DNA of 64,000 nt from a virus, in the IMG/VR virus record IMGVR_UViG_3300022890_000011, positions 62,001 to 126,000 of that record, one strand, 5' to 3'. Position 1 is the first letter of the stretch. Every line of letters begins with the position of its first letter. The notes beneath the pieces are model-generated. The model worked only from the letters and a program-made list of their open reading frames with translations. It searched no databases and was not told where the DNA came from. Shown here piece after piece: positions 2 to 24,930 of the stretch. Position numbers and translations under genes: made by a program.

Positions 2-817
2 CAAAAATTATATAAGAAAAAGAAAGATGTTGATTATGAAGAAGAAGAATTTGAAGAAGTAAAAAAATTGAAGAAAAAAGCCATTCAAAAAATGACTAAT
101 AAAGAGTTTAGAAAGAAAAAAACTCCTCTTCAAATTGAATTATTAAAATTACAAAATTGGTTATATAGAAAAGATAAAAGATTAGCTGTTCTTTTTGAAG
201 GTAGAGATGCTGCAGGAAAAGGTTCAGCAATCAAGACCATTATTGAATTTCTAGACCCAAAATTATTTAAAGTGGCTACGTTTGGTATACCAACAGAAGA
301 AGAAAAATTAAATTGGTTTGAAAGATATACTAAGAAATTACCAAAACCTGGTAAAATATCATTTTTTGATAGAAGTTGGTATAATAGAGCAGTAAATGAC
401 CCTGTTATGGGTTATTGTACAAAAGAACAATATAATGAATTTATAGAAGAAGTTATTCCATTTGAAGATCAATTAATTGATAATGGATTATATTTATTTA
501 AATTTTGGTTCTCAGTGAGCCAAGAAACTCAAGAATTAAGGTTTCAAATTAGACAAGCAAATCCATTAAAGACCTGGAAATTTAGTGAAAATGATTTATT
601 AACTATGAATAAATGGGATAAATTTACAGCATATAAAGAGAGAATGTTTTTACAAACTTCTACAGAAAAATCACCTTGGGTAATTGTTGATTCTAATGAT
701 AAGAAATTGGCTCAAATTAACATAATGAAATATATTTTAGAACAGATACCATATAAAAATAAAGATGTTAAAAGAGTTGGTCATCCATTACCAGAAATCG
801 TAATACCTTTGAAATGA
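2..817 (+). CDS. ppk2: Polyphosphate kinase 2 (PPK2), 5' end outside window
   Basis: The frame is open from the window edge through an acidic/lysine-rich stretch (DVDYEEEEFEEVKK), so the true start lies upstream; the TTG at 68 is probably not it. Seen: the P-loop GRDAAGKGSA, the second motif DRSWYNRAV, and the PPK2-typical segments FWFSVSQETQ and NPLKTWKFS. The sequence ends with the usual QIPYKNKDV region, so the catalytic domain looks whole. Family knowledge: PPK2 enzymes transfer phosphate between inorganic polyphosphate and nucleotides, often regenerating ATP or GTP in the cytoplasm. It overlaps the next start by four bases (ATGA), suggesting co-translation. A role in nucleotide supply during infection is inference. 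Confidence 0.93.
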   Translation, partial: QKLYKKKKDVDYEEEEFEEVKKLKKKAIQKMTNKEFRKKKTPLQIELLKLQNWLYRKDKRLAVLFEGRDAAGKGSAIKTIIEFLDPKLFKVATFGIPTEEEKLNWFERYTKKLPKPGKISFFDRSWYNRAVNDPVMGYCTKEQYNEFIEEVIPFEDQLIDNGLYLFKFWFSVSQETQELRFQIRQANPLKTWKFSENDLLTMNKWDKFTAYKERMFLQTSTEKSPWVIVDSNDKKLAQINIMKYILEQIPYKNKDVKRVGHPLPEIVIPLK

Positions 818-1230
818 AATATTTAAAAAAATTTGAAGATATTATTACTACTACTTATGATAATATTGATATACCTATTGATTATACAGATGATATATTA
901 TTTGATTTAGATTTTGAAACATTTAAATCAGTTTTAAATCTTATAAATATTGGTAGGCCACTTAATGCTTTAAAAAGTATTAAACATAAATTAGATTATG
1001 GTTTAAAACAATGCAAAGATTTGATGGGGAGAATGTGTTCTCTATTAGGTTATGATAGATTTAATATTAAATCTAATGAAAATGATCAATTTAATTATCA
1101 AGATGAAATAATAGATAAATATCCAGAATTAATATCATTAATTAGTAATTCAGAAAGATTTAATTTATTACCAGAAATAAGAGAAATATATGATGATTTA
1201 ATTCAAGGAAGTGAGTTGGGATTATTGTAA
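814..1230 (+). CDS. Unknown protein with head-targeting-like N-terminus and LGLL C-terminus
   Basis: 138 residues, no family recognised. It starts MKYLKKFEDI and ends GSELGLL, so it carries both the N-terminal motif and the C-terminal motif that recur through the window. The body is helical-looking and acidic, with no transmembrane segment. Its ATG overlaps the PPK2 stop. If the N-terminus works like the T4 capsid-targeting peptide, this would be packaged in the head; that is inference. Confidence 0.75.
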   Translation: MKYLKKFEDIITTTYDNIDIPIDYTDDILFDLDFETFKSVLNLINIGRPLNALKSIKHKLDYGLKQCKDLMGRMCSLLGYDRFNIKSNENDQFNYQDEIIDKYPELISLISNSERFNLLPEIREIYDDLIQGSELGLL

Positions 1231-1270
1231 TTTTAAAATTTAATATATAATAAAAAATTAACGAAATATA

Positions 1271-2152
1271 ATGAAAGAATTAAAAAATCTATCAAGTTAT
1301 AAAGATTTCTTATTAGAAGCTACAAATACTTATCAAGTTAAATGTAATGATAAAGTAACTGGTTCATTAGGAAATTATAAAGATACATTAAAAGTTTTTA
1401 AACAATCTTGTGAAGGTGGTAAAGATGGTGATGAAATTCAAATGATAAAAATTAAAGATAATAAAGGTAAAGATGTTAATGTTGTTAGTAAAACTAAAAC
1501 TATTGGAGGATCATCTAAGAAAGATACTAAAACAAAAGATGTTAGTTCAACTTCTATGTCAAAATCAACAAAAAATGTTGGTGTTGGTGAATTTAAGAAA
1601 GCATTAAAAGATCAATTATTAGATTTATTTGAACCACCTGCAAAAGATGTTAAATATGAATATGATAATGAAGGTAAACCAATTAAGATTACTTGTTTAG
1701 TAAATGCTAAAGATTGTGTTAATAAAATTAATCCAGATGAACAATTAAAAAATTTCAGTTTTGGTGTAAGTAAGAAAAAACCTTATTTAGTTACAGTTGG
1801 AAATGTTATCGTTGATGATGAAACAACAAGTAAAGCTAAAGATTCAGTTGTAACAAGTGGTGATGCAGCAGATAAAGATAGAATTTATAAAATTTCTTAT
1901 CCTATTTCTTATAAATCGAATAAAGAATTTGGTAAGAAGAAAGAAGAATTAGAAAGAAATTTTGATAAAGATTCATCACCACAATTAAAATCTAAGTTAA
2001 AATCAGATAAATACTCAGAAAAACAAAAAGATGAAATGAGAGACATTTTAAAGGAAAGAGGTGTTAGGATTAGAAGTGAATTTGAGGAAGATTATAAAAC
2101 AGATAAAGAAATGGAAAAAGAAGCTGAAGAAGCAGTAAAAAAAGTTAAATAA
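1271..2152 (+). CDS. Lysine-rich unknown protein with head-targeting-like N-terminus
   Basis: 293 residues. The start MKELKNLSSYKDFLLEA resembles T4 internal head protein leaders (MKTYQEFIAEA), with LLE before A as a possible prohead-protease site (h-x-E then a small residue). A Lys/Asp/Ser/Thr-rich linker occupies roughly residues 75-105; the C-terminal third is highly charged and coiled-coil-like (many K/E pairs). No enzyme motif seen. The next ATG follows the stop directly. It could be an internal virion protein. Confidence 0.75.
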   Translation: MKELKNLSSYKDFLLEATNTYQVKCNDKVTGSLGNYKDTLKVFKQSCEGGKDGDEIQMIKIKDNKGKDVNVVSKTKTIGGSSKKDTKTKDVSSTSMSKSTKNVGVGEFKKALKDQLLDLFEPPAKDVKYEYDNEGKPIKITCLVNAKDCVNKINPDEQLKNFSFGVSKKKPYLVTVGNVIVDDETTSKAKDSVVTSGDAADKDRIYKISYPISYKSNKEFGKKKEELERNFDKDSSPQLKSKLKSDKYSEKQKDEMRDILKERGVRIRSEFEEDYKTDKEMEKEAEEAVKKVK

Positions 2153-2776
2153 ATGTTAACATATAAACTATTTTTAGAATCCACGCATTGTTTTAATTGC
2201 GTGGATTGTCATAAAAAGATAAAAGTAAATACCAAAGATTATTATATGGTACATGATCATATTTGGGAAGAAGGAGTACAAGAAGAAAATAGAGGTAATT
2301 TAATATGTTTAGATTGTTTAGAAAAAAGATTGGGTAGGAAGTTAAAGATAGAAGATTTTACAGATTATCCTGTTAATGAACCAATTAAAGATGAATTGAA
2401 TGAAGGTTTATTTACTGATTATAAAAAGAAGTTTAAGACAAAATACGAAGATTTATTAAAAGAACACTTACATGAAGATATAATTTTTATTGTTAAAGTA
2501 ATACAACGGAAAGGAATTAAACAAATAACTAAAAGATTAAGTGAAATACATAAAGTTAAAGCCAAAAATATTTTGGAAGTTTATTTAAAATTTCCTAAAA
2601 TATCACATATTTATTCTTATATGTCATATCATGATGAACATACGATGAATACACAAAAATTAAGAAATTTGATTCTTCTTTTAAAAGAACAAAAAACTCT
2701 TGGTGAAGAAATTTATTTCACAGAAAGTAATAATGGCTTGTGTATAAAATTATATATTGATAAAAATGGGAAATAA
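2153..2776 (+). CDS. Zinc-binding unknown protein
   Basis: 207 residues. It begins MLTYKLFLES, a form of the head-targeting-like leader, then has Cys pairs C-x2-C-x2-C near residues 14-20 and a second C-x2-C (ICLDCLEKRLGR) near residues 54-60, most likely one bound zinc. The segment YYMVHDHIWEE with GNLICLDCLEKRLGR is a pattern I associate with phage-encoded HNH-like or zinc-ribbon hypothetical proteins, but no catalytic His pair is convincing. The C-terminal half is a separate helical region. Codons 9-18 lie in a perfect 10-bp hairpin (2178-2207). Confidence 0.75.
   Translation: MLTYKLFLESTHCFNCVDCHKKIKVNTKDYYMVHDHIWEEGVQEENRGNLICLDCLEKRLGRKLKIEDFTDYPVNEPIKDELNEGLFTDYKKKFKTKYEDLLKEHLHEDIIFIVKVIQRKGIKQITKRLSEIHKVKAKNILEVYLKFPKISHIYSYMSYHDEHTMNTQKLRNLILLLKEQKTLGEEIYFTESNNGLCIKLYIDKNGK
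2178..2207 (+). other. Perfect 10-bp hairpin inside the start of a zinc-protein gene
   Basis: AATCCACGCA and TGCGTGGATT are exact reverse complements separated by ten bases. The stem is much GC-richer than its surroundings and lies 25-55 bases after the ATG, where RNA structure could affect early translation. It also encodes part of the first Cys cluster, so the symmetry may be partly coding chance. Confidence 0.6.
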
Positions 2777-3098
2777 AATAAATCCAATTGCAATTAAATC
2801 GCTAAAAAAATTTTTAGAAGAATATTTTAAAAGATTTAGTATCTCACCTTTTTTAAGTTTTACACATGGTTCTTATTTTATTCAATGTAGAGTTGAAAAT
2901 AGTTTGAATTTTGATGAAACTCTTAAACTTATTGATATGGTTGAAACTTTAAATAGAGAAAACAATCTTTTACATCCTGCTATATTAGGTTGTATTGTCA
3001 ATTACCATCAACCTTCTATTGAATTAAGATTTTCAATAGATGCAGTAGAAACAAAATTTAGACATTTAATTGAAGCTGATAAAATGAATTTAATATAA
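2766..3098 (+). CDS. Unknown small protein ending MNLI
   Basis: About 110 residues beginning MGNKINPIAIKSL; an in-frame TTG nine bases upstream is less likely. It overlaps the end of the zinc protein by 11 bases. No family recognised. It ends ADKMNLI, a variant of the KLGLL-type terminus. Its stop overlaps the next ATG by one base (TAATG), so the genes from 814 to 3448 look like one transcription unit. Confidence 0.7.
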   Translation: MGNKINPIAIKSLKKFLEEYFKRFSISPFLSFTHGSYFIQCRVENSLNFDETLKLIDMVETLNRENNLLHPAILGCIVNYHQPSIELRFSIDAVETKFRHLIEADKMNLI

Positions 3099-3448
3099 TG
3101 AGACACCTAAAAACATATTTTGAGTCTTACGATGAATCGAATGACGAATTTAACGAAGAAATAATTGATAATTTTGATGAAGTTAGTGAAGAAATTATTG
3201 ACATAATTAAAAATATCGAAAATAAAACCACTGACATTGAAAGCGCGATGGAAAAATTAGACTTTATGATAGAAGGTTCTGGAGTAGAAACTATTAATAA
3301 GGGGGAAGAAGAGGATGATTATTGGTTAAATATAAAATCAATTTATGTTAATATTGGAGATCCTGATATGAAAACAATCTTTTATAATGTAGAAGATAGT
3401 GAGTGGTATTGTAAAAGTTACAATGAGTATATTAAAAAAGAGGATTAA
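3098..3448 (+). CDS. Acidic unknown protein with head-targeting-like N-terminus
   Basis: 116 residues, strongly acidic. The start MRHLKTYFESYDES fits the recurring leader. No enzyme motif seen. Its last codons (IKKED) lie in a palindromic terminator shared with the convergent dnaJ gene, so both proteins end in the same residues. Confidence 0.7.
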   Translation: MRHLKTYFESYDESNDEFNEEIIDNFDEVSEEIIDIIKNIENKTTDIESAMEKLDFMIEGSGVETINKGEEEDDYWLNIKSIYVNIGDPDMKTIFYNVEDSEWYCKSYNEYIKKED

Positions 3449-3459
3449 TCCTCTTTTTT
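3434..3459. terminator. Bidirectional terminator between convergent genes
   Basis: A run of A, the stem AGAGGAT/ATCCTCT and a run of T form a symmetric intrinsic terminator. It spans the last codons of the plus-strand gene ending at 3448 and the minus-strand gene ending at 3445, serving both. Confidence 0.85.
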
Positions 3460-4476
3460 TATTCTATTATAATCAATTATAATATTTATTTTAAACAATA
3501 ATGGTTGCCTTTGTTTTTTGGTTAATAATAAACCTTTGTTCTTTATTCTTATGATTTCTCCATTTTTTGTTTCTTTTGGAATAGTAAATTTATATTTTTT
3601 ATTGTCTAAATGTTTATGTTCATACTTATATCCATTAATAGCATCTTCATAATGTACATCTAATTGATAAATTAAACCATTTTTTAAAGGTTGATATTTT
3701 TCATCTGGAATATAATTAATAAGTAAAACTAAATTACCCACTTTACCTGGATAGTATTTAGAATGATGTCCATAACCTGATAAATATTCTTTACTTGAAC
3801 CTGTTAATTTGTATATATTATCTAAATTAAATTTAACTTGTTTTATTTTTACTTTATCACCGTTACAAGTTTTACAAGTGTCTGTAAAAATTTTTCCTAT
3901 ACCTTGACATTGAGGGCATTGTACGATCATTCTAGTTCCTTTAAATTTTGGGTCTTGTCCAGTGCCATCACAAACTTCACATATTTCTGAATGACCATTT
4001 TTATCAAACCCTGTTCCATCACAATCTTCACAACTTATATATCTTTGATAATCTACTTCAGTTGTTTTATTATTATAAACATCAGCAAGAGTTACATCAA
4101 TTTGTTGTTGTATATCTAAATCTTCTCTAAATCCTTGTTGATCTCTAAAACCTCTATTACCACCAAAAAATGAATCAAAAATATCTTGTGGACTTCCACC
4201 AAATGGATTAAAACCTCCACTACCTGGAAAACCAAATCCTCCCGTTGGGTTATAATTTGCACCATGGGGACTCATCATATCATACTGTTCTCTATTTTTA
4301 TTAAGAATAGTATTAGCTTCGTTAGCTTCTTTGAATTTTTCTTCTAATTCTTTGTCACCTTTTGTTTTGTCTGGATGATATTTTACAGCAAGTTTTCTGT
4401 AAGCTTTTTTAATATCTTCTTCTGAAGCGTCTTTTGTAACATCTAATATTTTGTAATAATCTTTATTTGGATCCAT
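3445..4476 (-). CDS. dnaJ: DnaJ (Hsp40) co-chaperone
   Basis: 343 residues with full type I architecture. The J domain has YYKILDVTKDASEEDIKKAY and the HPD triad near residues 34-36, required to stimulate DnaK. A Gly/Phe-rich linker follows (GGFGFPGSGGFNPFGG), then four C-x2-C-x-G-x-G-type zinc motifs (CEDCDGTG, CEVCDGTG, CPQCQGIG, CKTCNGD; the last is degenerate) and a substrate-binding C-terminal domain. It is somewhat shorter than bacterial DnaJ (about 370-380). No DnaK is seen nearby, so it would recruit host DnaK. A promoter-like element lies upstream at 4513-4527. Confidence 0.96.
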   Translation of the reverse strand: MDPNKDYYKILDVTKDASEEDIKKAYRKLAVKYHPDKTKGDKELEEKFKEANEANTILNKNREQYDMMSPHGANYNPTGGFGFPGSGGFNPFGGSPQDIFDSFFGGNRGFRDQQGFREDLDIQQQIDVTLADVYNNKTTEVDYQRYISCEDCDGTGFDKNGHSEICEVCDGTGQDPKFKGTRMIVQCPQCQGIGKIFTDTCKTCNGDKVKIKQVKFNLDNIYKLTGSSKEYLSGYGHHSKYYPGKVGNLVLLINYIPDEKYQPLKNGLIYQLDVHYEDAINGYKYEHKHLDNKKYKFTIPKETKNGEIIRIKNKGLLLTKKQRQPLLFKINIIIDYNRIKKED

Positions 4477-4600: not shown

Positions 4601-7600
4601 TTATCTTATTACTGTTACAGCACCAACTTCTACATGTTCTACACCTAAATGGTCTTTAAATATACAATACCAAGCATATACACCATTTTTAACATAATCA
4701 TTTATTTTACCATCCCATGTTTCTTTTATATCAAAGGATTCAAAAATCATTTCACCCCATCTATCATATATGAGTAAATTAAAGTCATTATTTATATTTT
4801 TGCCATATACTCTAAAATAATCATTTATACCATCATTGTCTGGTGAAAATGCTGTTGGTGCATAAAATGTGTATTGGTCTTGAACCTGTATATCTGTGTA
4901 TATTGTATCTCTACAATCATGATTTGTTGTAACTATTAGTTGAAGTATATAAGTTCCAGAATAATATGGATATACATGTATTGGGTTAACAATCGTAGAA
5001 TATTTACCATCACCAAAAATCCAATAATTTGTGACATTTAATAATGACATATTATTTATATAAATAGTTGGATTTATTATATTTACTATTTCATTATCAA
5101 CAATAAATTTAGCAGTTGGTAATGGATATACAGTTATCATATTAGTAATTGTGTTTGTATTTGAACAACCTTCTGATGAAGTTACAGTTAATGATATATC
5201 ATATACACCATAATCTTCAAATGTGTATGTTGGTGAATTACTATATGAAAAATTATCTCCAAAATCCCAAACATATGTCTGATTACTATCTAGACTTATT
5301 TCAAGAAAATTAACAGTAAGTGGTTGACACCCGCTCATAATATTAGATGACATGCTTATTGTAGGTTTATCATACACATTTATTGTATATGATTGTGTAG
5401 CTGTTGAACCACAATTGTCTGTTACAGTAAAATTATATGTTGTTGTTTGACTAGGATATGTAATATACGGTGAACTTTCATTATTATTATTTATTAGTAT
5501 TGTATATGGTGGTACTCCTAATGAAGGTGAAATGTTTATAGTTGCAGGTTCCCCTGGACAAACATAATCAGTATTTGAAAATATTGATAGTTGTACTGAT
5601 GTAGAAACTCCTATTGTTGTTGAAACATAATTACTTAAACAACCATTAGCATCTTCAATATGAACTACATATGTTGTTTCTATTATAGGTGATACATCAA
5701 TATTATTTATGGTTGTACTTGTGTTACTCCAAACATAATTGAATGGTAGTATACCACCAATACTTGATACTGAAATATTTGTACTTTGACCATTACATAT
5801 AGTGTGATCAGGTGTCATTGAAATAATTATTTCTGTTGGTTCATCTATTGTAAAATTAGTTGTAATTGAACAATCATTTAAATCTGTTATTATAATTGTA
5901 TACATACCAGGTGTTAAATTATTAAAATTTCCTGTTGATTGTGATGTACCATTAATAGAATATGTTAATGGTTGAACTCCTCCAGAAGCATTAATATTTA
6001 TATTTCCATTATTATATCCATAACAAGTTATATTTGTTGATGATTGAGTATTTATTATAATTTCAGGTGGTTCGTTTATTATTATTGGACTTATTATAGT
6101 ACAACCATTTAAATCTGTTATCAAAACATCATAAGTATTTGCACTTAATCCAAAGAAACAACCACTTAAATTTGTAACTATTCCTATATTATATGTTAAT
6201 GGTGGTAAACCACCAGAGCCAGTTATTGTAATTGTACCATTATTATTTCCAAAACAATCAACATTAGTTGAAGATATAGAATTAACAGTTAATATAGTGT
6301 TTTCATATATTGTTGAAGTTATTGAATCAGTACAACCATTTGAATCTGTTACTGTTACATTTATATCGCCATCACAAAGATTTATAGCTGTTTGTGTGGT
6401 TTGTGAATCATTCCAAAAATATGTATAGTTTGGTGTTCCACCATTTACTGTTACTGTAGCATCACCATCACAAAAACCGAAACAAGTAATATTTGTTGTA
6501 GAAATTGTTGCAGTTGGTTCTTCAAATATTTCAATATCAAATATAGTTACATCATTACAAGAATTTAGTATTGCCGTTTGTGTAATTGAATATATGCCAG
6601 GTGTGTTCCAAGTTATTCCAGTTGGATTTTCTGTTGTATCGTTTAATATTGAACCACCTGGAAAAGACCAAGTCCAATGTATAATTCCTCCAGTATCACC
6701 AGTATTCGTAAAATCAAATGAATTACCATTTAAACATTGATTAGGGTTTGTAATAAAACCTGATATAACATTACCAGTAGCACCAACAGTAACTATTTCT
6801 GTTTCAGTACAACCATTATCATCTGTAATTGTGATAATATATGGTCCTGCTGATAAACTATCAAACACATTAGTAGAAACTTGTCCTGAGCCTATATCAT
6901 ATAATAATGGTGGTGTTCCGCCATTAACTATAATAGTTACACTACCATCAGATAGACCACAAGTTTCTGGTGTGTTTGTTGATGTTATAGTTAATAATAT
7001 AGGATCAATTATAGTTATACTTGTAGATCCTGTACAACCCATATCATCAGTTACTATTACAGTATAAGTTCCTGCATTTAATCCTGTTATATTTTGAGTT
7101 GTGTCTGTATTTGACCACAAATAAGTATAAGGACCTGTTCCTGTTGTCATATTTAGTATTCCGCCTGTTCCATCAAAACTCCCACAACATAAAGGATTAG
7201 TAAATATAGAATCAACTATTAAATCAGGTAAAACAGTAACAGTAGTTGGAAATCGACAACTTACAGGCATCCATCCACATGATAAGCCAGGATTAACTAT
7301 ATCAACTGTTGATGTTTGGCAAATCCAGTCAATTTCTGTATTAGTATCTGTATTCCCTATTCTTTGTAAACTTGTATTTACTCCAGAACAAGGTAAAATG
7401 GCACCATTACCAATCCACTCTGGTCCTATTGTAATATTAAAACCATTAATTGTGGTATTCATACTGGCTATTTCCGCAGCAGACCATCCCCAAACACAAA
7501 AATCTACAACATTACCAACATCATCAATAATAATTGACCAACTTTGACTTGTTCCATTCCAAAAAATATTATTTCCCCAGTAATTAGCTGGATATCCAGA

Positions 7601-8653
7601 ATCATCACATCTCCAAACAACTGAACATGCAGTAAATGAAGAAGGTAGTTGCCAAAGTATTGAGTTTACAGAATTTATATCAGAATAAGAATCGCTAACT
7701 GCAGCAACCCAACCTGTAGTATTAATAGTTGTAGAATATAAATTAGAAATTTCAAGATAATCTTCACTACCAGAACCTCCCATAAATCCTTCTAATCCAG
7801 ATTCTGTGATTAGTATTGTACCAACTGTAGATGTTTGTCCTGTGGTTTGTGTCCAATATGTTGTAGTTGTTGTTAATGGAGGTGTTGTATAAACACCTGT
7901 TGTATCTAAAAGATTACCACCAATTTGGTCACTCCACCATTCATAATTTCCTAAAAGACCAGTTGCTGTAAGTGTGGTAAAATCGCCTGCACAAAGAGTT
8001 GTATTTCCAGTAATAGTAGGTGCTGGAATTACTTCAATTAAAAATGTATCTGAAACAATAATTCCTGGACAAACATCACATCTAACTTCGATAGTAAAAG
8101 TTGTAGTAGTTGGAGGAGAAGCATAATAAACGGATGTTGTGCTCCATGGTTGTATCACAGTTGCACCGTCTAAAATTTGATATTCATAATTGCCTGTACA
8201 ACCACCATTAATGGTAAAATTAATCGTATCTTGACCACCACCACAATTCATTATTACTTGTGGGTCTGGAGTAACAGAAGTTGGTCCACATGGGGGAGGT
8301 GGACAGTTTGCGATAACATTATTAATATTTGCACTAACACTACCACTGCCAACTAGAGTCCCCTGACTATCAGTTAATGTAAAATGACATTCTGAGGTCC
8401 ATGAACCAATAGGGTTAAATATTATATCTATATCATCTCCAAGATTAACAGGAACATCATAACAGACAGGTCCTGACCCAGTAGTGAAAGCAGGGCCGTA
8501 AGTTGCAACTAATGCCCCATTTACAAAAACATCGATTGTGTTACCATTCCAGCCATCACCATAGTCATCTGTTAGACAAACCTCATAAATGCATTGACTA
8601 TTAACAATTAAAGTACTTAAAAATATTGCAATTAAAAAAATTATTTTTTTCAT
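4601..8653 (-). CDS. Giant secreted repeat protein with gliding-motility (T9SS) C-terminal domain
   Basis: 1350 residues. An N-terminal signal peptide (MKKIIFLIAIFLSTLIVNSQ) is followed by a jelly-roll-like CxxDDYGDGWNG region, then a lamin-tail-like domain (TILITESGLEGF...EDYLEISN, about residues 280-420). Next come at least five SprB-type repeats (pattern GxPPYTYxWS..TxxIxxLxAGxYxVxITDxNGC), PKD-like domains (VWDFGDN; WIFGDG) and a C-terminal domain of the gliding-motility-associated type (YAPTAFSPDNDGINDYFRV, YDRWGEMIFES, TWDGK). In Bacteroidota such proteins are exported by type IX secretion and attached at or released from the surface. Finding one beside phage-like genes is odd; it could be an adhesin or moron. 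It is followed by the terminator at 4554. Confidence 0.9.
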   Translation of the reverse strand: MKKIIFLIAIFLSTLIVNSQCIYEVCLTDDYGDGWNGNTIDVFVNGALVATYGPAFTTGSGPVCYDVPVNLGDDIDIIFNPIGSWTSECHFTLTDSQGTLVGSGSVSANINNVIANCPPPPCGPTSVTPDPQVIMNCGGGQDTINFTINGGCTGNYEYQILDGATVIQPWSTTSVYYASPPTTTTFTIEVRCDVCPGIIVSDTFLIEVIPAPTITGNTTLCAGDFTTLTATGLLGNYEWWSDQIGGNLLDTTGVYTTPPLTTTTTYWTQTTGQTSTVGTILITESGLEGFMGGSGSEDYLEISNLYSTTINTTGWVAAVSDSYSDINSVNSILWQLPSSFTACSVVWRCDDSGYPANYWGNNIFWNGTSQSWSIIIDDVGNVVDFCVWGWSAAEIASMNTTINGFNITIGPEWIGNGAILPCSGVNTSLQRIGNTDTNTEIDWICQTSTVDIVNPGLSCGWMPVSCRFPTTVTVLPDLIVDSIFTNPLCCGSFDGTGGILNMTTGTGPYTYLWSNTDTTQNITGLNAGTYTVIVTDDMGCTGSTSITIIDPILLTITSTNTPETCGLSDGSVTIIVNGGTPPLLYDIGSGQVSTNVFDSLSAGPYIITITDDNGCTETEIVTVGATGNVISGFITNPNQCLNGNSFDFTNTGDTGGIIHWTWSFPGGSILNDTTENPTGITWNTPGIYSITQTAILNSCNDVTIFDIEIFEEPTATISTTNITCFGFCDGDATVTVNGGTPNYTYFWNDSQTTQTAINLCDGDINVTVTDSNGCTDSITSTIYENTILTVNSISSTNVDCFGNNNGTITITGSGGLPPLTYNIGIVTNLSGCFFGLSANTYDVLITDLNGCTIISPIIINEPPEIIINTQSSTNITCYGYNNGNININASGGVQPLTYSINGTSQSTGNFNNLTPGMYTIIITDLNDCSITTNFTIDEPTEIIISMTPDHTICNGQSTNISVSSIGGILPFNYVWSNTSTTINNIDVSPIIETTYVVHIEDANGCLSNYVSTTIGVSTSVQLSIFSNTDYVCPGEPATINISPSLGVPPYTILINNNNESSPYITYPSQTTTYNFTVTDNCGSTATQSYTINVYDKPTISMSSNIMSGCQPLTVNFLEISLDSNQTYVWDFGDNFSYSNSPTYTFEDYGVYDISLTVTSSEGCSNTNTITNMITVYPLPTAKFIVDNEIVNIINPTIYINNMSLLNVTNYWIFGDGKYSTIVNPIHVYPYYSGTYILQLIVTTNHDCRDTIYTDIQVQDQYTFYAPTAFSPDNDGINDYFRVYGKNINNDFNLLIYDRWGEMIFESFDIKETWDGKINDYVKNGVYAWYCIFKDHLGVEHVEVGAVTVIR

Positions 8654-8676
8654 TTTATTTATTTATTTATTTTTAT

Positions 8677-11600
8677 TTATCTAATTAGTGTTACTACACC
8701 TGTATGTTCATTATAGACATCGTTATCTAATTTAAATTTACATAACCAAGTATATACACCATTTTTTACTATTTCTTTACTATTATTTCTTACACGACCG
8801 TTCCAACCTTCATTTATATCATTAGTTTCAAATATAATTTCTCCCCATCTATCAAACACATATAATGTAAAATTACTTTTTGTATTTATACCATTACCAA
8901 AGACTCTAAAATAATCATTAATTCCATCAAAATCTGGTGAAAATGCTGTAGGTGCATAAAACGTATATTCATTTGTAATAGTTATTTCCATGTATACAGT
9001 ATCTCTACAACCTTTATCACTTTCCGCAATTAATTGTACATTATATGTACCTGTTGGGTATGTTGGATAAACATGATATGGATTTATCATAGTTGAACCT
9101 GATTCATCTCCAAAATCCCAGTAATATTTTATTGCACCTTCTGAATAATTATTAAAATATATAGTAGGATTTATAATACTAACTATTTGTGGATCTGCTA
9201 TAAATGCGGCTTTCGGTACTTTATATACATATATTAGATTATTTATTGTTTGTGTATTTACACAATTATTTGAATCAGATACTTGTAAAGTAACATCATA
9301 TATACCACTTTCATTATATTCGTATATTGGACTATTACTATAAGATACCGAGTTATCTCCAAAATTCCATAACAAATTACCATTATTTGAACTATTAAAT
9401 GATACTGTTAATGGTACACAACCACTTATTATATCACTTGAAAATGAAACTATAGGTAAATCATATACTGTAAAATCAATACTTGCATCATCAATAGAAC
9501 CACACATATCAGTTATTGTAAATGTTATAGTTTCACTTTGATTAGGATAATGAAAATATGGAGTAGTTATTGTATTACCATTATAAGTAATTACATATGG
9601 TGGTACTCCAGAAGAGCCAACTAATTCTATATATACTTTTTCTCCGATACAAAGACTTGCATCAGTAGGTATTACTGTTAAATTAACACCTGGTTGTATA
9701 TTAACAACTGTTGAAACTACATTACCAAGACAGCCATTAACGTCTGTAACTTGACATACATAACTTGTATTTGATGTTGGAGAAACTATAATATTTGGTG
9801 TATTATCCATATGAGCCCATAAATAATTATATGGTGGGTTACCGCCAATAATGGTAACAGAAATATTTGCGTTTGCACCATTGCATATTGTTTGATTAGG
9901 TGTAATATTTACAATTATTTCATCTGGTTCAATTAATGTAAATGGTGTAGTAATTGAACATCCATTATCATCTGTTATAGTTATATTATATATATCAGGA
10001 GATAAATTAACAAAATTACCACTTGTTGATGAATAAGAACCAAAATTATATGTTAATGTACCTATACCACCACTCGCATTAATAGTTATTGTTCCGTCAT
10101 CATAATTATAACAAGTTGAATTTGTAAATGATTGGTTATCAATAACTATTGCATTTGGTTCAGTAATTATAATTTCTTGTGTCACTGAACAATTATTACA
10201 ATCAGTTATAGTAACATTATATGTATCAGCACCTAAACCAAAAAATTGTCCTGTTTGATTAGTTATACCTCCAAGTGAGTATGTAATAGGAGAACAACCA
10301 CCTGATGCAATAGTAGTTATTGTTCCATCGATATTACCATTACAAGAAGGTTCTGTAAATAGAAAATTATCTATATTGATTGGATTTGCTGCATTAACAA
10401 TTCCATTATTTATTGATGTGCAATTATTTGCGTCAGTTATTGTAACATCATAATTATTAGGACATAAACCAATTATTGTTTGTGTTATATCTGTAGTATT
10501 CCATTCATATGTATAAGGATTATTTCCATTTAATGGATTTGCTGTTGCTGTTCCATCACATAAATTTACACAAGTTTCATCTGTAGTTATAACTGTTACA
10601 AATGGCATTTCAAACACTTCAATTGTTAATGTATCAGTATCGTTACAACCTCCAAGATGTGTTGTTTGCGTTACATCATATTGTCCGGGAATAGTCCATG
10701 TTACGCCTGTTGGATTTTCATTTGCTGAAGACGACGGTGTTCCACCTGAAAAAGACCATGTCCATGTAATTCCACCACCTGTATCTCCTGTATTTGTAAA
10801 ATTAAAAGAATTACCTATTAAACATTGATCTATACTGGTAGTAAAACCTGAAGCAACAGAACCACTTGTACCTACTGTTACTAATTCTGTGATAGTGCAA
10901 CCATTAACATCTGTAATTGTAATGGTGTATGGACCTGCAAGAAGACTTGTAAAATTGCCTGTTGCCTGTCCGCCTGAGCCAATATTATAGCTTAAAGCTC
11001 CTGTTCCTCCTGTTGCAGTAACAGATATTGCACCATCTGATGATCCACATACTTCCGGTGTAGAACCCGAAGAAGATACTGTTATTTCTGGAGGAATTGT
11101 AACACTGATATTTATTACGTTCGGTGCACAAGTTGGATCGGTTACTGTTAAAGTAATATTTGGCGTTGAACCAGATGTGGAATAAGTTACAGTATGTGGT
11201 CCAACTGTATTTGCTGTAGCTAGAGTTGCCCCTGTTCCAAAATTCCATACATAAGTAGCACCAGGGTCAACAGTTCCCGGAACATAAGTAAATGTAATAG
11301 GTGAATCATAACAGTCTGGTGTCGTTGCAGTAATACTACCGGGAGGCGTTACACAACCCATGCAAGGAGCAGGAGCAGTATATGTTATAGTATAATTACA
11401 ACCATCATCAGTAAAATAAGAGTATAAAGTATGTGTGAGACCATCAGCCGGAATACCAGTTATACTAAAATTAGTAGGACTAAAAAAGTTTGGAGTAGGT
11501 ATAAAAGAATCAAAAAAACCGGGACCTGCATCGTCTTCAATAATTAAACTTCCTGTTGCAGGTGGATTAATATATACAATCGTACCTGTAATATCATAAG

Positions 11601-12496: not shown

Positions 12497-12505
12497 CTTT
12501 TTTAT

Positions 12506-14179: not shown

Positions 14180-14255
14180 GTATATTTTTTAATTTTTTAA
14201 TTAAATCTTCATTATATTTAATCCTTAATAAATTTATATTTTCACTAAAATTCAT
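14163..14255 (-). CDS. Very small unknown ORF
   Basis: 30 codons (MNFSENINLLRIKYNEDLIK...), start overlapping the upstream stop by one base (TAATG) and end overlapping the next gene by 17 bases. The coupling supports translation, but there is no recognisable motif. Confidence 0.35.
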   Translation of the reverse strand: MNFSENINLLRIKYNEDLIKKLKNIHDYKV

Positions 14256-16232: not shown

Positions 16233-16319
16233 AAAATTTATTTAATTTGATTTATATTAATGGTATATATAAAAATAGAATTTTCATTTAATATATAGTC
16301 TAAAAATAGAAATAATAAA

Positions 16320-16895
16320 ATGATAAAAATATATGAGAATTTTGTAGAACAAAATGCAATAGTTGAGAAACTTAATGCATTAATGAAAGGATTTATGAAA
16401 ACTATTAAACAATGGTTTACAACAGGTTCATTTTCAAAACACGGTCTCACATTATACGATCTTGAAGAAAGTTCGATTACAGATAAATTAGAAAAAAGTC
16501 TGATATTTTCATTTAGTGATGATAGCAACTTTTATCAAGTAGAATTTGTCATCAGATTAGCCGATTATCAAGAAGGAATATTCAAAAAAGCTTTTCTTAA
16601 AGTTAAAAAATATGCTCTACACGAACAACCAACTGATAGTTTATCTGGTATGATGGTTGATGTGTGGGATTCTAATGATCCAAATAATAATCCAAAAGGT
16701 GATGGTCAAATTGACATTTCTGAATTTACAGAAGATAAAATTATTGACATAATCTCTGAAATGGATAATGAGCCTCAAGCTCCTGGTACTAGTGAAGAAG
16801 GTACAAAATCTATGGAGGGTGATGTTGTTAAACAAGAATTACCACAACCTCAAACACAAGAAGGTGGTGAATTACAAGATGAATTTGAATTTTAA
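16320..16895 (+). CDS. Unknown protein with head-targeting-like N-terminus and EF-hand-like loop
   Basis: 191 residues starting MIKIYENFVEQNAIVEKL. Near residues 118-135 it has DPNNNPKGDGQIDISEF, resembling a calcium-binding DxNxDGxIDxxE loop. The C-terminus is a Pro/Gln/Glu-rich tail. It opens the plus-strand group 16.3-20.6 kb from the divergent spacer 16233-16319. Confidence 0.7.
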   Translation: MIKIYENFVEQNAIVEKLNALMKGFMKTIKQWFTTGSFSKHGLTLYDLEESSITDKLEKSLIFSFSDDSNFYQVEFVIRLADYQEGIFKKAFLKVKKYALHEQPTDSLSGMMVDVWDSNDPNNNPKGDGQIDISEFTEDKIIDIISEMDNEPQAPGTSEEGTKSMEGDVVKQELPQPQTQEGGELQDEFEF

Positions 16896-19629: not shown

Positions 19630-19872
19630 ATGAACAAAATGATGAAATTTAAGCACTTTGTTAATGAAAACCTAACCGAAAAAAGATTTATTGATAATTT
19701 CAAGGAAAAATTCTTGTTTTATTTCAATAATAATGAACTATATAATAATAAATTTAAAAAGCATATAGATAAGAGGATATATTCATTTTTTATTGATTTA
19801 AAGAAACATTATAAAAATATGAGAGAACCAGGATGGAAAGACAAATATAATCTCACAGAACATGATAACTAA
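19630..19872 (+). CDS. Small protein with head-targeting-like N-terminus, relative of the HELTH protein's C-terminus
   Basis: 80 residues: leader MNKMMKFKHFVNENLTE, then a segment (FKKHIDKRIYSFFIDLKKHY) that matches the C-terminal end of the following gene (FQKHIDKRLYLLYQNL). It is a partial duplication of that domain with its own leader. Overlaps the next gene by 11 bases. Confidence 0.7.
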   Translation: MNKMMKFKHFVNENLTEKRFIDNFKEKFLFYFNNNELYNNKFKKHIDKRIYSFFIDLKKHYKNMREPGWKDKYNLTEHDN

Positions 19873-20629
19873 ATTTAAATTATTCGAAAGAAGTGATATT
19901 GAACAAAGTGAAAAATTTGAAAAAATTTCTCGTTATATATTACGTGTTATTAAAAGACACTTCAATAAATGTATTAAGAATTTTTTAGATGATGATGACA
20001 AAGAACAATTAAATAATAATTTACAATCATTAAAATATAAAGATACCACTATACAACTTGTAAAAAATATGAATATTTCATATGCTAAAGACACTACTGG
20101 TAATAAATATTTAAATATAGGTTTAGAATCAATATTAGTATTAATAAAAGAAATAGAAACTGCTGCTAAACAAGGTAAATTAACAAAAGATTATATTAAA
20201 AATGTCAATATTTATAACTTATTAGATAAGTGGGAAAAATCTGCAATTATACATGAATTAACACACAAATCTGATGATGAAACATTTGATTTATTTGGTG
20301 ATCTCTTATTAAAGATTTATGGTAAAAAAGAACCAACAAAAGAAGAAATAGAAAAAGATTCTTTTGAAAAATATATGAAAATATATAATGATATTCCAAC
20401 TGAATATAATGCATATTTTATACAAATGACAAATGTAATTATAAATAAAATAAAAATAAATCCAAAAATATTAAATTCTTTTGGTGTATTTAAAAAATAC
20501 TTTTTAATATATTTTAAACATTATTCAAATGATTTATATGATAAAGGCAGGTTTCAAAAACATATTGATAAAAGATTATATTTATTGTACCAGAATCTTA
20601 CAGATAAAGAAAAAGTCAACATTAGTTGA
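19862..20629 (+). CDS. Putative zinc metallopeptidase (HELTH) with head-targeting-like N-terminus
   Basis: 255 residues. Leader MITKFKLFERSDIEQ, with L-F-E then R. The central motif IIHELTHKSDDE gives HExxH, the zinc-peptidase signature. Beyond this motif I cannot name a family; the third ligand is not obvious. The C-terminus (FQKHIDKRLYLLYQNL) is shared with the 80-residue gene before it. If packaged in the head it could act on host proteins or on virion maturation; inference only. A terminator follows at 20611. Confidence 0.7.
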   Translation: MITKFKLFERSDIEQSEKFEKISRYILRVIKRHFNKCIKNFLDDDDKEQLNNNLQSLKYKDTTIQLVKNMNISYAKDTTGNKYLNIGLESILVLIKEIETAAKQGKLTKDYIKNVNIYNLLDKWEKSAIIHELTHKSDDETFDLFGDLLLKIYGKKEPTKEEIEKDSFEKYMKIYNDIPTEYNAYFIQMTNVIINKIKINPKILNSFGVFKKYFLIYFKHYSNDLYDKGRFQKHIDKRLYLLYQNLTDKEKVNIS

Positions 20630-20634: not shown

Positions 20635-20640
20635 CTTGTT

Positions 20641-20856: not shown

Positions 20857-20874
20857 GATTAAACAAGGAAATCA

Positions 20875-22247: not shown

Positions 22248-22820
22248 CTACAATAACCCCATAGAAATTGAGTCAATTATTTGTTTACAATCTGGATCTT
22301 TTAAAATATTTGGATTTATATCTAGATCATTATTCATTAATAGTTTAAAAAATTCTAAGTTATTATTTATTAAATATTTTTGTATTACTTCTGTTTTAAA
22401 AAAATTACTTGAATATAAATTTTGATACATTCTATATGAAATTAATTTATCTAAACTAACTCTTTTATCTAATAAATAAATAAATTTTAAAACGTCTGAA
22501 TTATCAAATGCATCTACAACACCTAATTCTAAATCACTTTTAAGATAATATTCTGATACTTTCCATTTCTTACCACAATCTTCGGAAAAACAATCTTCAA
22601 TAAATACATTATCTCCAATAAATCTACCTTTTTTAAAATCTATTTTATTATCATATTTTTTCATAGATTCTATGAATTGTTCACCATGTAACCATCTAAT
22701 TAAATAAGATAAATTTGGCATTGAATTTGTAATATCTCTATCAAGAGGATCTTCAAATACAACACTAAAATGATCATGTTTTGCCCATTTATCTTCATTA
22801 TATTTCTTTAAATGATTCAT
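22248..22820 (-). CDS. Unknown protein with head-targeting-like N-terminus and MGLL C-terminus
   Basis: 190 residues starting MNHLKKYNEDKWAKH and ending ISMGLL, thus bearing both recurrent motifs. The C-terminal half (FFKTEVIQKYLINNNLEFF, KLLMNNDLDINPNIL) has ankyrin-like spacing. No enzyme motif seen. Confidence 0.7.
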   Translation of the reverse strand: MNHLKKYNEDKWAKHDHFSVVFEDPLDRDITNSMPNLSYLIRWLHGEQFIESMKKYDNKIDFKKGRFIGDNVFIEDCFSEDCGKKWKVSEYYLKSDLELGVVDAFDNSDVLKFIYLLDKRVSLDKLISYRMYQNLYSSNFFKTEVIQKYLINNNLEFFKLLMNNDLDINPNILKDPDCKQIIDSISMGLL

Positions 22821-22892
22821 TATTTATTATATATATTTAAATTTCCTTTGAAAAAAGAATTAATTAGAAGTTAAAATAATATCATAATCTTG

Positions 22893-22912: not shown

Positions 22913-22981
22913 GAATTTAGTTGCTGAAAATTCTACTAGTCGCTGAATTAGACGTTACTAACTATTAAATATTCATTTCAT

Positions 22982-23065
22982 TTAGTTTTTTATATCAACG
23001 AGAGCTTTATTATCAAAATCAATTTCGTCATAGATTTTTTCGTTATATTTTTTTAAGTATTTCAT
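22982..23065 (-). CDS. 27-residue ORF with head-targeting-like N-terminus
   Basis: MKYLKKYNEKIYDEIDFDNK... then a stop. Its ATG overlaps the upstream stop (ATGA). Either a genuine mini-protein or a truncated remnant that kept the leader. Confidence 0.4.
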   Translation of the reverse strand: MKYLKKYNEKIYDEIDFDNKALVDIKN

Positions 23066-23502
23066 AATAGTCCTAATTCACCTCCTTGTAGTATATATTC
23101 ATATTTATTTTCTTCTACCCAATTATAAAAATTATATTGAGTAGGATGATGTCCATTTGGATCTGAAAAATATATATCTTCTGTTTCAGCTGTTAATGTA
23201 TAATATAATGGTTCACTTTCTACACTTCCTTCATTTATTACAATAAACCAAATAAAATTTGGTTCTTTTTCAGCTTTAATTTTAATGTAATTTAAAAATT
23301 GTTGTTTTGTTCCTGATGTCATGTTTCTATTTCCAAAAACTATGATATCATCATTATAATGTTCACACATTAATTTAATTGCATTAACAATGTCTTTTCC
23401 TTTTATAAATTTATATCCCCATGATTTTTGATGATTTGTTGGTTTATCATTTTGTATAGGTTTCGATTTAAAAAAGCCTTCGTATGTTTTTAGATTATTC
23501 AT
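23062..23502 (-). CDS. Unknown protein with head-targeting-like N-terminus and ELGLL C-terminus
   Basis: 146 residues, MNNLKTYEGFF... ending GGELGLL. The middle (GKDIVNAIKLMCEHYNDDII) looks like a Rossmann-type helix-strand pair, but no family is recognised. Divergent from the 23537 gene across a 34-base spacer. Confidence 0.7.
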   Translation of the reverse strand: MNNLKTYEGFFKSKPIQNDKPTNHQKSWGYKFIKGKDIVNAIKLMCEHYNDDIIVFGNRNMTSGTKQQFLNYIKIKAEKEPNFIWFIVINEGSVESEPLYYTLTAETEDIYFSDPNGHHPTQYNFYNWVEENKYEYILQGGELGLL

Positions 23503-23536
23503 TTAAATTATATATTAATTTTAATATATAACAATA

Positions 23537-23962
23537 ATGAAATCATATGAAAAATATATAGAATTTAATAAAAAGATTGAATCTTTAAAAAGTGAAATGT
23601 GTATTGAACTTTATAATGAGTTATTAAAAATGAAAAAGTTTGGTGTTAAACCAGAGAGTAATAGTCAAGGTTTAGATCTTATAATACCTTTTAAAGTTAA
23701 AATTTATGATAATGATTATAATGGATTTGGTATTTATTATCACAGGGTACAAGGTAGAGAAAATATTAGTATATATGTTGGTATTGTAGATGATATTGAT
23801 AATTTTGGTTGGGAGGGGTTAATTATAACAGTTTCTGTTAAAGGTTATATTCAAGGAGATTTGATTGAAAATGAACAAAATAAACAATTTAAAATAATAT
23901 TTAAGTTTTTAATGGAAGATGCTCTGCCATATTTAGAGTCAAGAAATTTAGGATTAATGTAA
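23537..23962 (+). CDS. Unknown protein with LGLM C-terminus
   Basis: 141 residues: MKSYEKYIEFNKKIESL... ending RNLGLM. A beta-rich middle (FGIYYHRVQGRENISIYVGIV). The leader is a looser form of the recurrent motif. Followed immediately by the LRR gene. Confidence 0.65.
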   Translation: MKSYEKYIEFNKKIESLKSEMCIELYNELLKMKKFGVKPESNSQGLDLIIPFKVKIYDNDYNGFGIYYHRVQGRENISIYVGIVDDIDNFGWEGLIITVSVKGYIQGDLIENEQNKQFKIIFKFLMEDALPYLESRNLGLM

Positions 23963-24502
23963 ATGAAGTATTTAAAAACATATTCAGAAAATCAATTAAT
24001 TAAAGACCATTTAAGTGATAATGGTAAAACATTAGATTTATCTAATTTAGATTTAACTGAATTACCTGAATTACCTGAAGGATTAGAAAGATTATATTGT
24101 GGTAATAACCAATTACCTGAATTACCTGAATTACTTAAAGAATTAAAAGTATTATATTGTTATAATAACCAATTAACTAAATTACCTGAATTACCTGAAG
24201 GATTAGAAAGATTATATTGTTATTATAACCAATTAACTAAATTACCTGAATTACCTAAAGGATTAAAAAGATTATATTGTTATTATAACCAATTAACTAA
24301 ATTACCTGAATTACCTAAAGGGTTAGAAGTATTATCTTGTTATTATAACCAATTAACTAAATTACCTGAATTACCTAAAGGGTTAAAAATATTAGATTGT
24401 GATTATAACCAATTAACATATAAAGATTTAGATGGTTATTGGAAATGGTTTTGGAAAGAAAATCCAGACCTTCATAATGCAAATAAAATGGGATTATATT
24501 AA
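23963..24502 (+). CDS. Leucine-rich-repeat protein with head-targeting-like N-terminus
   Basis: 179 residues. Leader MKYLKTYSEN, then LRRs of the bacterial short type with 20-residue period (LPELPKGLKRLYCYYNQLTK), about six near-identical units, a capping segment (LDGYWKWFWKENPD) and the end NKMGLY. LRRs are protein-binding scaffolds. The near-identity of repeat DNA implies recent expansion or gene conversion. Confidence 0.85.
   Translation: MKYLKTYSENQLIKDHLSDNGKTLDLSNLDLTELPELPEGLERLYCGNNQLPELPELLKELKVLYCYNNQLTKLPELPEGLERLYCYYNQLTKLPELPKGLKRLYCYYNQLTKLPELPKGLEVLSCYYNQLTKLPELPKGLKILDCDYNQLTYKDLDGYWKWFWKENPDLHNANKMGLY
24049..24414 (+). repeat. 60-base tandem repeats within the LRR gene
   Basis: Six consecutive units of exactly 60 bases coding for LPELPxGLxxLYCxxNQLTK, differing at only a few bases each. 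An exact 20-codon period permits copy-number change without frameshift. Confidence 0.9.
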
Positions 24503-24901
24503 ATGAAGTATTTAAAAACATATGAAGAGTTGTTATATGTAAATTATAAGTATGTTATAGTTTGTAAAAATGAAAAAGAATTTGTTGATGTTCAAAAATA
24601 TATTAAAAAGAATGTACCACAGATAAAATTCAATTTTCAAAAATCTTATTATGATGTTAAAAATGATTTTATTAGTAGTTCAGATTTTAGTAGTAACAGA
24701 ACAATAGATGAAGTTTATCCTAATTTGAAAGATGAAAACTCACCTATTTTTCTTTATATTTTACCAGATTTAGAAATTATTACAGGTGATATTGATAAGT
24801 GGATTGAATATTATGATAAAAAAGGAATACCAGTTATAAAAGGCAATGATATTGAACAATTATCAGTATTTATAGAATCAAAAAAATTAGGACTAATGTA
24901 A
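24503..24901 (+). CDS. Unknown protein with head-targeting-like N-terminus and KLGLM C-terminus
   Basis: 132 residues: MKYLKTYEELLYV... ending SKKLGLM. The first 21 bases are identical to those of the LRR gene and of the stub that follows. No family recognised. Confidence 0.7.
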   Translation: MKYLKTYEELLYVNYKYVIVCKNEKEFVDVQKYIKKNVPQIKFNFQKSYYDVKNDFISSSDFSSNRTIDEVYPNLKDENSPIFLYILPDLEIITGDIDKWIEYYDKKGIPVIKGNDIEQLSVFIESKKLGLM

Positions 24902-24930
24902 TGAAGTATTTAAAAACATATGAAGATTAA
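24901..24930 (+). pseudogene. Orphan leader stub (MKYLKTYED then stop)
   Basis: ATG overlaps the preceding stop by one base; nine codons of the leader, then TAA. This looks like the surviving 5' end of a further member of the array, cut off where the opposite-strand gene (24927-25085) begins. Confidence 0.6.

Follow-up and report, generated by a model that had tools for sequence, protein, structure and literature searches.

Why do so many proteins encoded in one stretch of viral DNA begin with similar short peptides? The question is raised by a window of 64,000 nucleotides, bases 62001-126000 of the 166,601-base virus record IMGVR_UViG_3300022890_000011 (hereafter the fragment). A sequence-only reading of this window had noticed that about twenty proteins between positions 814 and 24930 start with peptides resembling MKTYQEFIAEA, the leader of the internal head proteins of phage T4. 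The analysis described here indicates that this leader is probably a T4-type capsid-targeting sequence (CTS) belonging to a greatly expanded system. The central proposal, that many proteins bear a capsid-targeting leader like that of T4, gains support because motif models that were not built on the T4 internal proteins recover them, and because the leader fits the experimentally mapped targeting residues, shows a residue preference at P1′ and is conserved at the peptide level. It is further supported because controls lie at or near chance, because leader genes and structural genes have an upstream element in common and because a match to an S77 protease occurs in seven of seven large relatives.

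The family-B-type DNA polymerase of the fragment finds its best match in the phage collection in LR756501 (735,411 bases) at 54.5% identity, followed by LR756503, which has the same length, and by records of 634-642 kb at 40-42%. PMC7162821 names the clade of such large phage genomes Mahaphage and gives its members above 634 kb as predicted to replicate in Bacteroidetes. A portal protein, a major capsid protein (MCP) and an S77 protease were sought in the fragment without success, and it therefore probably represents a small share of a far larger genome. It was compared with LR756501 (labelled W01 and taken whole), LR756502 (W02, minus the last 2.4 kb) and LR756500 (W07, minus the last 2.0 kb); LR745206 and LR756504 lay outside the leader search. 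Genes were called mechanically (longest open reading frame (ORF), greedy choice), with no trained gene finder.

Abundance of the leader

The fragment was scored with motif models trained on W01 and W02 only, a held-out design that avoids circularity. Score thresholds were set from shuffled N-termini, and 9 bits was taken as a pass. By this measure 52 of the 249 genes of the fragment reach at least 9 bits (2.5 with shuffled N-termini), and 50 still pass at a threshold of 10 bits (0.9 expected). Within the window, 13 of the 33 genes of the interval 814-24930 pass, whereas none of the 71 genes wholly contained in 26000-64000 does so (Fisher p 4.7e-8).

A hand-seeded matrix, whose starting pattern was drawn up with the T4 peptide as a guide, unlike the random-start models considered below, underlies the cross-phage counts and the tallies of cleavage sites, C-terminal tags, families, upstream elements and membrane segments. 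At 9 bits or more, it detects the leader in 122 of 1066 genes of W01, 69 of 999 of W02, 28 of 702 of W07 and 30 of 249 of the fragment (shuffle expectations 5.3, 5.6, 3.9 and 1.4, respectively). In W01 proteins, residues 1-14 contain the full motif at about 54 times the density seen at residues 30-100. Application of the matrix to control phages gave 2 leaders in 405 genes of phage G (30% GC; 300 of 498 kb scored; shuffle 1.6) and 2 in 297 genes of phiKZ (240 of 280 kb; shuffle 0.5); in these two phages, no S77 match was found and leader counts are at or near chance. The Lak-A2 phage MK250019 (26% GC, TAG read as glutamine; 400 of 541 kb) gave 4 in 479 (shuffle 1.9) and the scored part of PAU 2 in 193 (shuffle 0.9). 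Few leaders occur in other S77-bearing phages, namely 3 in 253 proteins of T4 (0.6 by shuffling), 6 in 404 of KVP40 (0.9) and 5 in 172 of the part of MA9V-2 that was scored (0.7). AT content does not explain the abundance of the leader, because the AT-rich phage G and Lak stay near chance. The expansion is also not general to S77-bearing relatives, because Lak has an S77 protease but a near-chance count.

Likeness to the internal proteins of T4

Random-start searches, with 10-wide and 12-wide models for each phage, returned as the best N-terminal motif IKKFKEFINE in W01, KHLKKYNEFE in W02, KYIKEYEEFLNE in W07 and KYLKTYEEFNNN in the fragment. An initial motif search had been discarded, as it merely lined up the initiator methionine. 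Motif log-likelihood reached 576.5 in W01 and 321.2 in the fragment (120 starts), against 181.8 and 165.5 in shuffled N-termini (60 starts); no meaningful motif emerged from the part of MA9V-2 searched in this way. The models were then scored on 253 T4 proteins, a set that omits spliced genes as well as certain coding sequences that are very short or nested. Scored without overhang, the T4 proteins ranked 10 to 243 across five training sets, and the motif was then permitted to overhang the N-terminus of all proteins. Under this scoring, the internal proteins IPI, IPII and IPIII fall within the top 19, mostly the top 7-8, of the 253. Both W02 models place IPI, 61.1, IPIII and IPII in positions 1-4, and both W01 models place 61.1, IPIII and IPII in positions 1-3 with IPI at 8 or 13. 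The 12-wide model of the fragment ranks 61.1 first, IPI fourth, IPIII sixth and IPII seventh; its 10-wide model is weaker (IPI 1, 61.1 3, IPIII 11, IPII 19). For W07, the ranks of 61.1, IPI, IPIII and IPII are 1, 4, 6 and 7 (10-wide) and 10, 14, 3 and 4 (12-wide). The product of T4 gene 61.1 (NC_000866 18966-19130), which starts MKTFKEFIKED, thus ranks first or second in six of the eight models, and third and tenth in the other two. It is predicted to be a T4 internal protein, and a literature search on it found no report.

According to a review of T4 head work, targeting by the IPIII leader is carried chiefly by residues 4 and 7, and its processing by residues 8 and 10 (PMC9026906, section 2.6); in MKTYQEFIAE these four residues are Y, F, I and E. 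The information peaks of the W01 leader are two aromatics (1.88 and 1.81 bits) that correspond to IPIII residues 4 and 7. The cleavage site was analysed by choosing N-terminal aromatic cores irrespective of the residues that follow and comparing them with internal cores. An h-x-E follows the N-terminal core in 55 of 194 cases in W01, 25 of 158 in W02, 21 of 63 in W07 and 13 of 47 in the fragment, and the internal core in 31 of 756, 19 of 665, 7 of 472 and 10 of 198, that is, 16-33% against 1.5-5% (28% against 5% in the fragment). The corresponding values are 3/10 against 2/118 in the part of MA9V-2 and 0/6 against 5/146 in the part of PAU. At P1′, immediately after h-x-E, serine accounts for 22% (background 7%) and alanine for 20% (background 3%) of the 117 pooled cases. 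The suggestion that many of the leaders carry an h-x-E cleavage site was too generous, as only a minority have the full site; in the interval 814-24930, it occurs at T4 spacing in the genes at 1271, 14939 and 19630, and in that at 15735 when read from an internal start.

Like IPI, IPII and IPIII, the leader proteins combine an N-terminal K-[FY]-x-x-F core with unrelated mature parts, and a subset has a putative cleavage site, h-x-E followed by a small residue. According to PMC12373910, T4 Ip1-3 are injected, inhibit type IV restriction enzymes and have only the leader in common. The two systems differ in that T4 has 3 such proteins, as opposed to the 122, 69 and 28 that pass the 9-bit threshold in W01, W02 and W07, in that enzymes are among the carriers here, in that many leaders have two or three extra residues at the front and lack the cleavage residues, and in that additional C-terminal tags exist in three of the four phages. 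The ejection proteins of SPN3US and phiKZ are alike in the sense that large phages place many proteins in the head, some of them cut by a prohead protease (PMC5694885, PMC7411985 and PMC10052503). However, phiKZ has no S77 match and, across 297 genes, shows the complete leader motif only once (0.2 by shuffling). DarA and DarB of phage P1 may be comparable as head-tied proteins that counter defence (PMC9024508 and PMC12810830).

Expression timing and the prohead protease

Are the leader genes expressed together with the genes for the virion? The occurrence of the 8-mer AATATATA was counted within 70 bases upstream of operon-first genes only. The 8-mer was chosen on the leader genes themselves, so that only the counts for structural and replication genes are independent. 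The element precedes 73 of 106 leader genes, none of 12 replication genes and 243 of 1073 others. With one best match per query, it precedes 13 of 22 structural genes (p 5.4e-4 against 0/12 for replication), distributed as 4/6 in W01, 8/10 in W02 and 1/6 in W07, and when only the seven named structural functions are considered the count is 9 of 16 (p 1.7e-3 against 0/12). These values replace a looser structural count of 15/25, which held secondary matches and the fragment protein at record 2311-2724, removed because it matches only the DUF5856 part of the MA9V-2 protease. In the leader sets of W01, W02, W07 and the fragment, the element occurs 29, 27, 7 and 10 times, against 2.5, 3.2, 1.2 and 0.9 in Markov shuffles. 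The T4 late-promoter sequence TATAAATA was tried as well and is not enriched upstream of leader genes. Because the upstream element is common to leader and structural genes and is absent before the 12 replication genes, it suggests that the two groups may be jointly expressed late.

The profile PF03420 (S77, gp21-type), which matches strongly in T4 and KVP40, has a match in each of the seven large related records, four of them above the Pfam cut-off and three below it. The S77 part of the MA9V-2 protease aligns to proteins of W01, W02 and W07 with E-values of 1e-15 to 1e-26. No S77 protease is found in the 166.6-kb fragment, but all seven large related phages have a match. In W01, the S77-matching protein lies between portal (71969) and MCP (76340), and three tandem leader genes are located 6-9 kb upstream of this portal-protease-MCP group. 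In the cultured Chryseobacterium phage MA9V-2 (OR513085), an 82-residue leader protein starting MKTFTYFINEA is encoded at 166687-166935, between portal and protease, which is the place of gp67 and gp68 in T4; a further candidate of this phage is a 268-residue product at 162897-163703. Use of an S77 prohead peptidase is reported for jumbo-phage groups 1 and 2 (PMC7824862).

Carriers of the leader and their C-terminal tags

Once the leader is removed, the 30 leader proteins of the fragment fall into 29 families, the 69 of W02 into 63, the 28 of W07 into 24 and the 122 of W01 into 79, the last including two paralogue clusters of 26 and 13 members. Two Pfam scans covered 121 of the 122 W01 proteins (one at a tile edge was left out) and 111 proteins of the other phages, made up of 48 from W02 (at least 10 bits, of the 69 at 9), 28 from W07 and 35 from the fragment (42 at 8 bits by the hand-seeded matrix, minus 8 judged doubtful, plus the RNA ligase at 6.4 bits). 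For most of these 121 and 111 proteins, Pfam gives no match at E 1e-4. The matches at this cut-off comprise 30 families in W01 and 28 in the others, several overlapping on one protein and each resting on one or few members. Among the matches listed (25 of the 30 and 25 of the 28 families) are PPK2, RNA ligase 1, polynucleotide-kinase-3′-phosphatase-like, NUDIX, poly(A)-polymerase-type nucleotidyltransferase, HD, deaminase, GNAT, methyltransferase, HSP20 and leucine-rich-repeat (LRR) families. A LigT protein with similarity to Acb1, whose best match is 2′-5′ RNA ligase, also bears the leader. In W01, the MCP, DNA polymerases, topoisomerase, clamp loader, terminase, sheath, tube and neck genes all score below 4 bits.

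The leader can be a detachable prefix of an enzyme. The RNA ligases of the fragment and W02 have about 20 residues ahead of the start of the shorter ligase of W01, and T4 RnlA is also without them. The PPK2 leader is kept in three of three aligned orthologues, and the region after it diverges. Among 390 reciprocal best pairs from the four phages, both members have the leader in 11, one member in 25 and neither in 342, 12 being in between; the 11 include at least one DUF723-like false positive and two pairs that share the single PPK2 of the fragment, and many of the 25 are near the threshold.

Three of the four phages have a second, genome-specific tag, with the forms h-x-E-[GAS]-x-K-M-G-L-L in the fragment, NADDFG[LF] in LR756500 and DPYGEExW in LR756501. 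In the fragment, 33 genes end in an [M/L]-G-L-[L/M/I]-like tag, often after h-x-E-[GAS], and 26 of the 33 have a leader by a looser rule (odds ratio 13). In W07, a C-terminal DFG[LF], mostly NADDFG, ends 11 proteins, 8 of them with a leader; this tag resembles the NANKMGLY of the LRR protein of the window. In W01, DPYG[EN]E is found in 91 of 1066 proteins, 48 of which have a leader (odds ratio 4.5). It may stand at any position, often within 12 residues of the C-terminus, and it is conserved in peptide and not in codons, the full 8-residue form occurring in 86. The leader proteins of W02 have no such C-terminal tag. One possibility is that the tag is a C-terminal propeptide, because T4 Alt is cut at both ends (PMC9026906).

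Proposed function and alternative explanations

If the leader is a T4-type CTS, dozens of mostly unrelated and mostly soluble proteins would be made late in infection from promoters of the class used by the virion genes. The N-terminal peptide would form a helix with two aromatics at a spacing of three (K-[FY]-x-x-[FY]), by which each protein attaches to the prohead core, and a gp21-type (S77) protease would remove the leader in the subset with h-x-E before serine, alanine or asparagine. Carried inside the head alongside the DNA, the proteins would reach the next host immediately. What is observed is the motif with its statistics and distribution, its match to T4, its conservation as a peptide, the upstream element and the protease match in relatives; the helix, its docking, the cut, the loading and injection of the proteins and their late timing are all deduced in this scheme. 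RNA ligase, the polynucleotide-3′-phosphatase-like protein, PPK2, the LigT/Acb1-like phosphoesterase and NUDIX would fit immediate RNA repair and counter-defence. Some giant phages may in this way bring along with their DNA a large set of ready-made tools, RNA-repair enzymes among them. One copy of every W01 leader protein amounts to 3.2 MDa, which is small beside the approximately 480 MDa estimated for DNA of 735 kb, and thus tens of copies of each might fit in the head.

It is conceivable, though short of probable, that in some Mahaphages some 4-20% of the genes encode cargo preloaded in the head, the leader acting as a transferable ticket that is gained or lost on enzymes and delivers an infection-start proteome for RNA repair, nucleotide metabolism and counter-defence, with the second tag marking sub-classes or serving as a C-terminal propeptide. 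Should the leader prove to be a packaging ticket, tens to more than 100 genes per genome in some of the largest phages known would be assigned by a simple reading of sequence to one compartment and to the moment of infection, and the rule would flag likely counter-defence proteins among leader proteins that mostly lack a Pfam match. The rule also predicts cargo in phages that have been studied or cultured (T4 61.1 and five candidates among the 172 MA9V-2 genes examined) and offers a loading tag outside the T4-like phages of enterobacteria. A literature search, whose scope excluded preprints and most subscription journals, found the work on T4, P1 and SPN3US and none on T4-type leaders in Mahaphages.

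Could the leader be an address to another phage-made place, such as a replication compartment or the host membrane? Some jumbo phages partition the cell, enzymes of nucleic-acid metabolism bear the leader, and further genome-specific tags exist, all of which would suit such an address. This explanation is nevertheless unlikely: the replication proteins that were checked are without the leader, the upstream element is common to leader and structural genes, the T4 internal proteins that the leader matches have a known destination, and predicted membrane segments are depleted among leader proteins (10/247 against 225/2529 in the others, p 0.004). Somewhat less credible is the idea that the leader docks scaffold proteins or assembly aids on the prohead core, which are then degraded or left behind, so that little is delivered to the host. 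The T4 core proteins gp22 and gp67 remain in the head as small fragments (PMC9026906), and the three tandem leader genes upstream of the W01 portal-protease-MCP group would be well placed for such a role, but the cargoes include enzymes whose catalytic domain is complete (PPK2, Rnl1) and the mature parts are mostly unrelated, as in the 29 families among 30 proteins of the fragment.

It is very improbable that the leaders are remnants of one duplicated family or a translated DNA element such as a repeat, a ribosome-binding site or a regulatory site. Some paralogues do exist (the LRR copies and the W01 clusters of 26 and 13), the KTY-type leaders of the fragment share codons slightly above expectation (0.758 against 0.703, standard deviation 0.048), and this holds above all for its C-terminal tag (0.621 against 0.475, standard deviation 0.053). 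However, codon agreement in the matrix-defined leaders is close to that expected from genome codon use (0.714 against 0.750 in the fragment, 0.571 against 0.583 in W01), and therefore it is the peptide that is conserved and not the DNA. The codon analysis disfavours a DNA-level repeat and the family count disfavours paralogy alone, and on RNA ligase the leader is a removable prefix. Chance in AT-rich genomes whose composition favours K, Y, F, N, I and E has a negligible probability and is refuted by the composition-preserving shuffles (2.5 against 52 observed), by the counts at or near chance in phage G, phiKZ and Lak and by the N-terminal density of the motif in W01.

Several observations weigh against a capsid-targeting role of the leader. 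The leader model misses the T4 core proteins gp22, gp67, gp68 and Alt. Only in W01 do the aromatics stand out clearly as the information peaks; in the other three phages, one or both are strong without being the sole peaks. In W02, the preceding [HY]-[LI] carries as much information and the second aromatic carries less (1.38 bits), with W07 and the fragment in between, and the MKYLKTY(S/N)x leaders form a degenerate class without the second aromatic. Most leaders lack the full cleavage site. The upstream element is weak before the structural genes of W07, the three S77 matches below the Pfam cut-off are those of W01-W03, and searches of the fragment itself found no portal, MCP or S77 protease. 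Lak and PAU bear S77 proteases and have near-chance leader counts. NusG, SMC and endonucleases that we take to be DUF723-like are likely false positives of the model, because the motif match overlaps the start of the domain itself. The W01 portal (6.2 bits) and a structural-cluster protein matching MA9V-2 coding sequence 059 (7.7 bits) fall between the classes, and 9 of 121 W01 leader proteins have a predicted membrane segment.

Leader genes of the window

All 14 N-termini quoted in the sequence-only reading are present where it had located them, MKFKHFVNEN starting at an internal methionine of the ORF 19630-19872. Eleven of the 14 pass, those at 2153 (8.7 bits), 13648 (6.2 bits) and 14502 (1.4 bits) failing, and two unquoted genes, at 23537 and the LRR gene at 23963, also pass. 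The figure of about twenty was therefore slightly high: 13 genes of the interval pass at 9 bits and at most about 17 could be counted, if the doubtful 2153, 13648 and 14255 and the internal-methionine start of 15735-16136, found by eye, are included.

The window opens with the end of a PPK2 polyphosphate kinase gene (1-817, plus strand; PF03976 1.2e-79), whose start lies outside it at record 61603 and whose leader is MKHLKTYDDLINES. On the same strand follow a leader protein starting MKYLKKFEDI with the C-terminal tag LIQGSELGLL (814-1230; 14.9 bits), a promoter-like AATATATA element (1242-1249) before the gene at 1271, the leader protein MKELKNLSSYKDFLLE/A (1271-2152; 12.1 bits; slashes mark putative cleavage points), the probable leader protein MLTYKLFLE/S (2153-2776; 8.7 bits, just below threshold) and the leader protein MRHLKTYFES (3098-3448; 16.5 bits); a weaker candidate lies at 2757-3098 (6.8 bits). 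The next group is on the minus strand, with the doubtful leader MKMKTKFYEF (13648-13866; 6.2 bits), the leader protein MIIKFKEYKKVHEG (13850-14179; 10.4 bits), a doubtful GTG-start ORF with the near-identical start MIIKFKEYKKVYEG (14255-14497; 6.8 bits), the unsupported MKIHKLYEFLE of the earlier reading (14502-14924; 1.4 bits) and the leader protein MKIKRYNDFINE/E (14939-15709; 19.1 bits). In the last of these, the leader is followed by a AMATAGNTGGMGAVVTPQPS stretch resembling a stretch that occurs in small leader proteins of both W01 and W02. A possible leader, MKSFDDFILE/G, was recognised by eye at an internal methionine of 15735-16136 (minus strand), the longer ORF scoring -1.7 bits. A GMG-PQP small leader protein, used as a query, matches only its own record and LR745206.

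Back on the plus strand, a AATATATA element (16290-16297) precedes the leader protein MIKIYENFVEQ (16320-16895; 10.2 bits), and the leader proteins (MNKM)MKFKHFVNE/N (19630-19872; 15.0 bits) and MITKFKLFERS (19862-20629; 12.7 bits) follow. The latter had been described as a HELTH peptidase; the HELTH motif is there, but the protein has no Pfam match up to E 0.1 and its fold predicted from the single sequence is unusable (predicted local distance difference test, pLDDT, 43). Searching the phage collection at E 1e-3 gave no match for it, and no relatives of the PPK2, the HELTH protein or the 14939 protein were found in the viral_contigs collection. Two minus-strand leader proteins, MNHLKKYNED with the tag SMGLL (22248-22820; 15.2 bits) and MNNLKTYEGF with the tag GGELGLL (23062-23502; 15.1 bits), are each preceded by a AATATATA element, at 22830-22837 and 23509-23516, respectively. 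A plus-strand element at 23523-23530 stands before the leader protein MKSYEKYIEF with the tag YLESRNLGLM (23537-23962; 11.4 bits), after which come the LRR protein, with the leader MKYLKTYSEN and the tag NANKMGLY (23963-24502; 11.7 bits), and the leader protein MKYLKTYEE with the tag FIESKKLGLM (24503-24901; 18.2 bits), all on the plus strand. The assignment of the LRR protein is confirmed by PF12799 (LRR_4, 1.2e-27), and similar genes are present elsewhere in the record.

Other terminal motifs and neighbouring genes

A second leader family, MKIRxGFVSNSSSSS[FY], starts nine otherwise different proteins, eight in the window at 37067-45607 and one at record 147549-148193, with varying codons. 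It has no match in W01, and AATATATA stands before none of its three operon-first cases. A basic C-terminal tag, R-K-[LIE]-K-[LIM]-x-R-[VIL], also with varying codons, ends eight small proteins in the window (30140-43242) and two in other parts of the record, a count made with one regular expression to which more look-alikes could be added by eye; none was found in W01. Neighbouring genes of the window at 3445-4476, 49416-51077 and 51199-53205 are presumably DnaJ-like, CTP-synthase-like and Clp-ATPase-like, respectively. Finally, the minus strand of 4601-13330 encodes three proteins, two of more than 1100 residues with a signal-peptide-like start, whose C-terminal region we take to be like type-B sorting domains of the type IX secretion system (T9SS), an unusual cargo for a phage.

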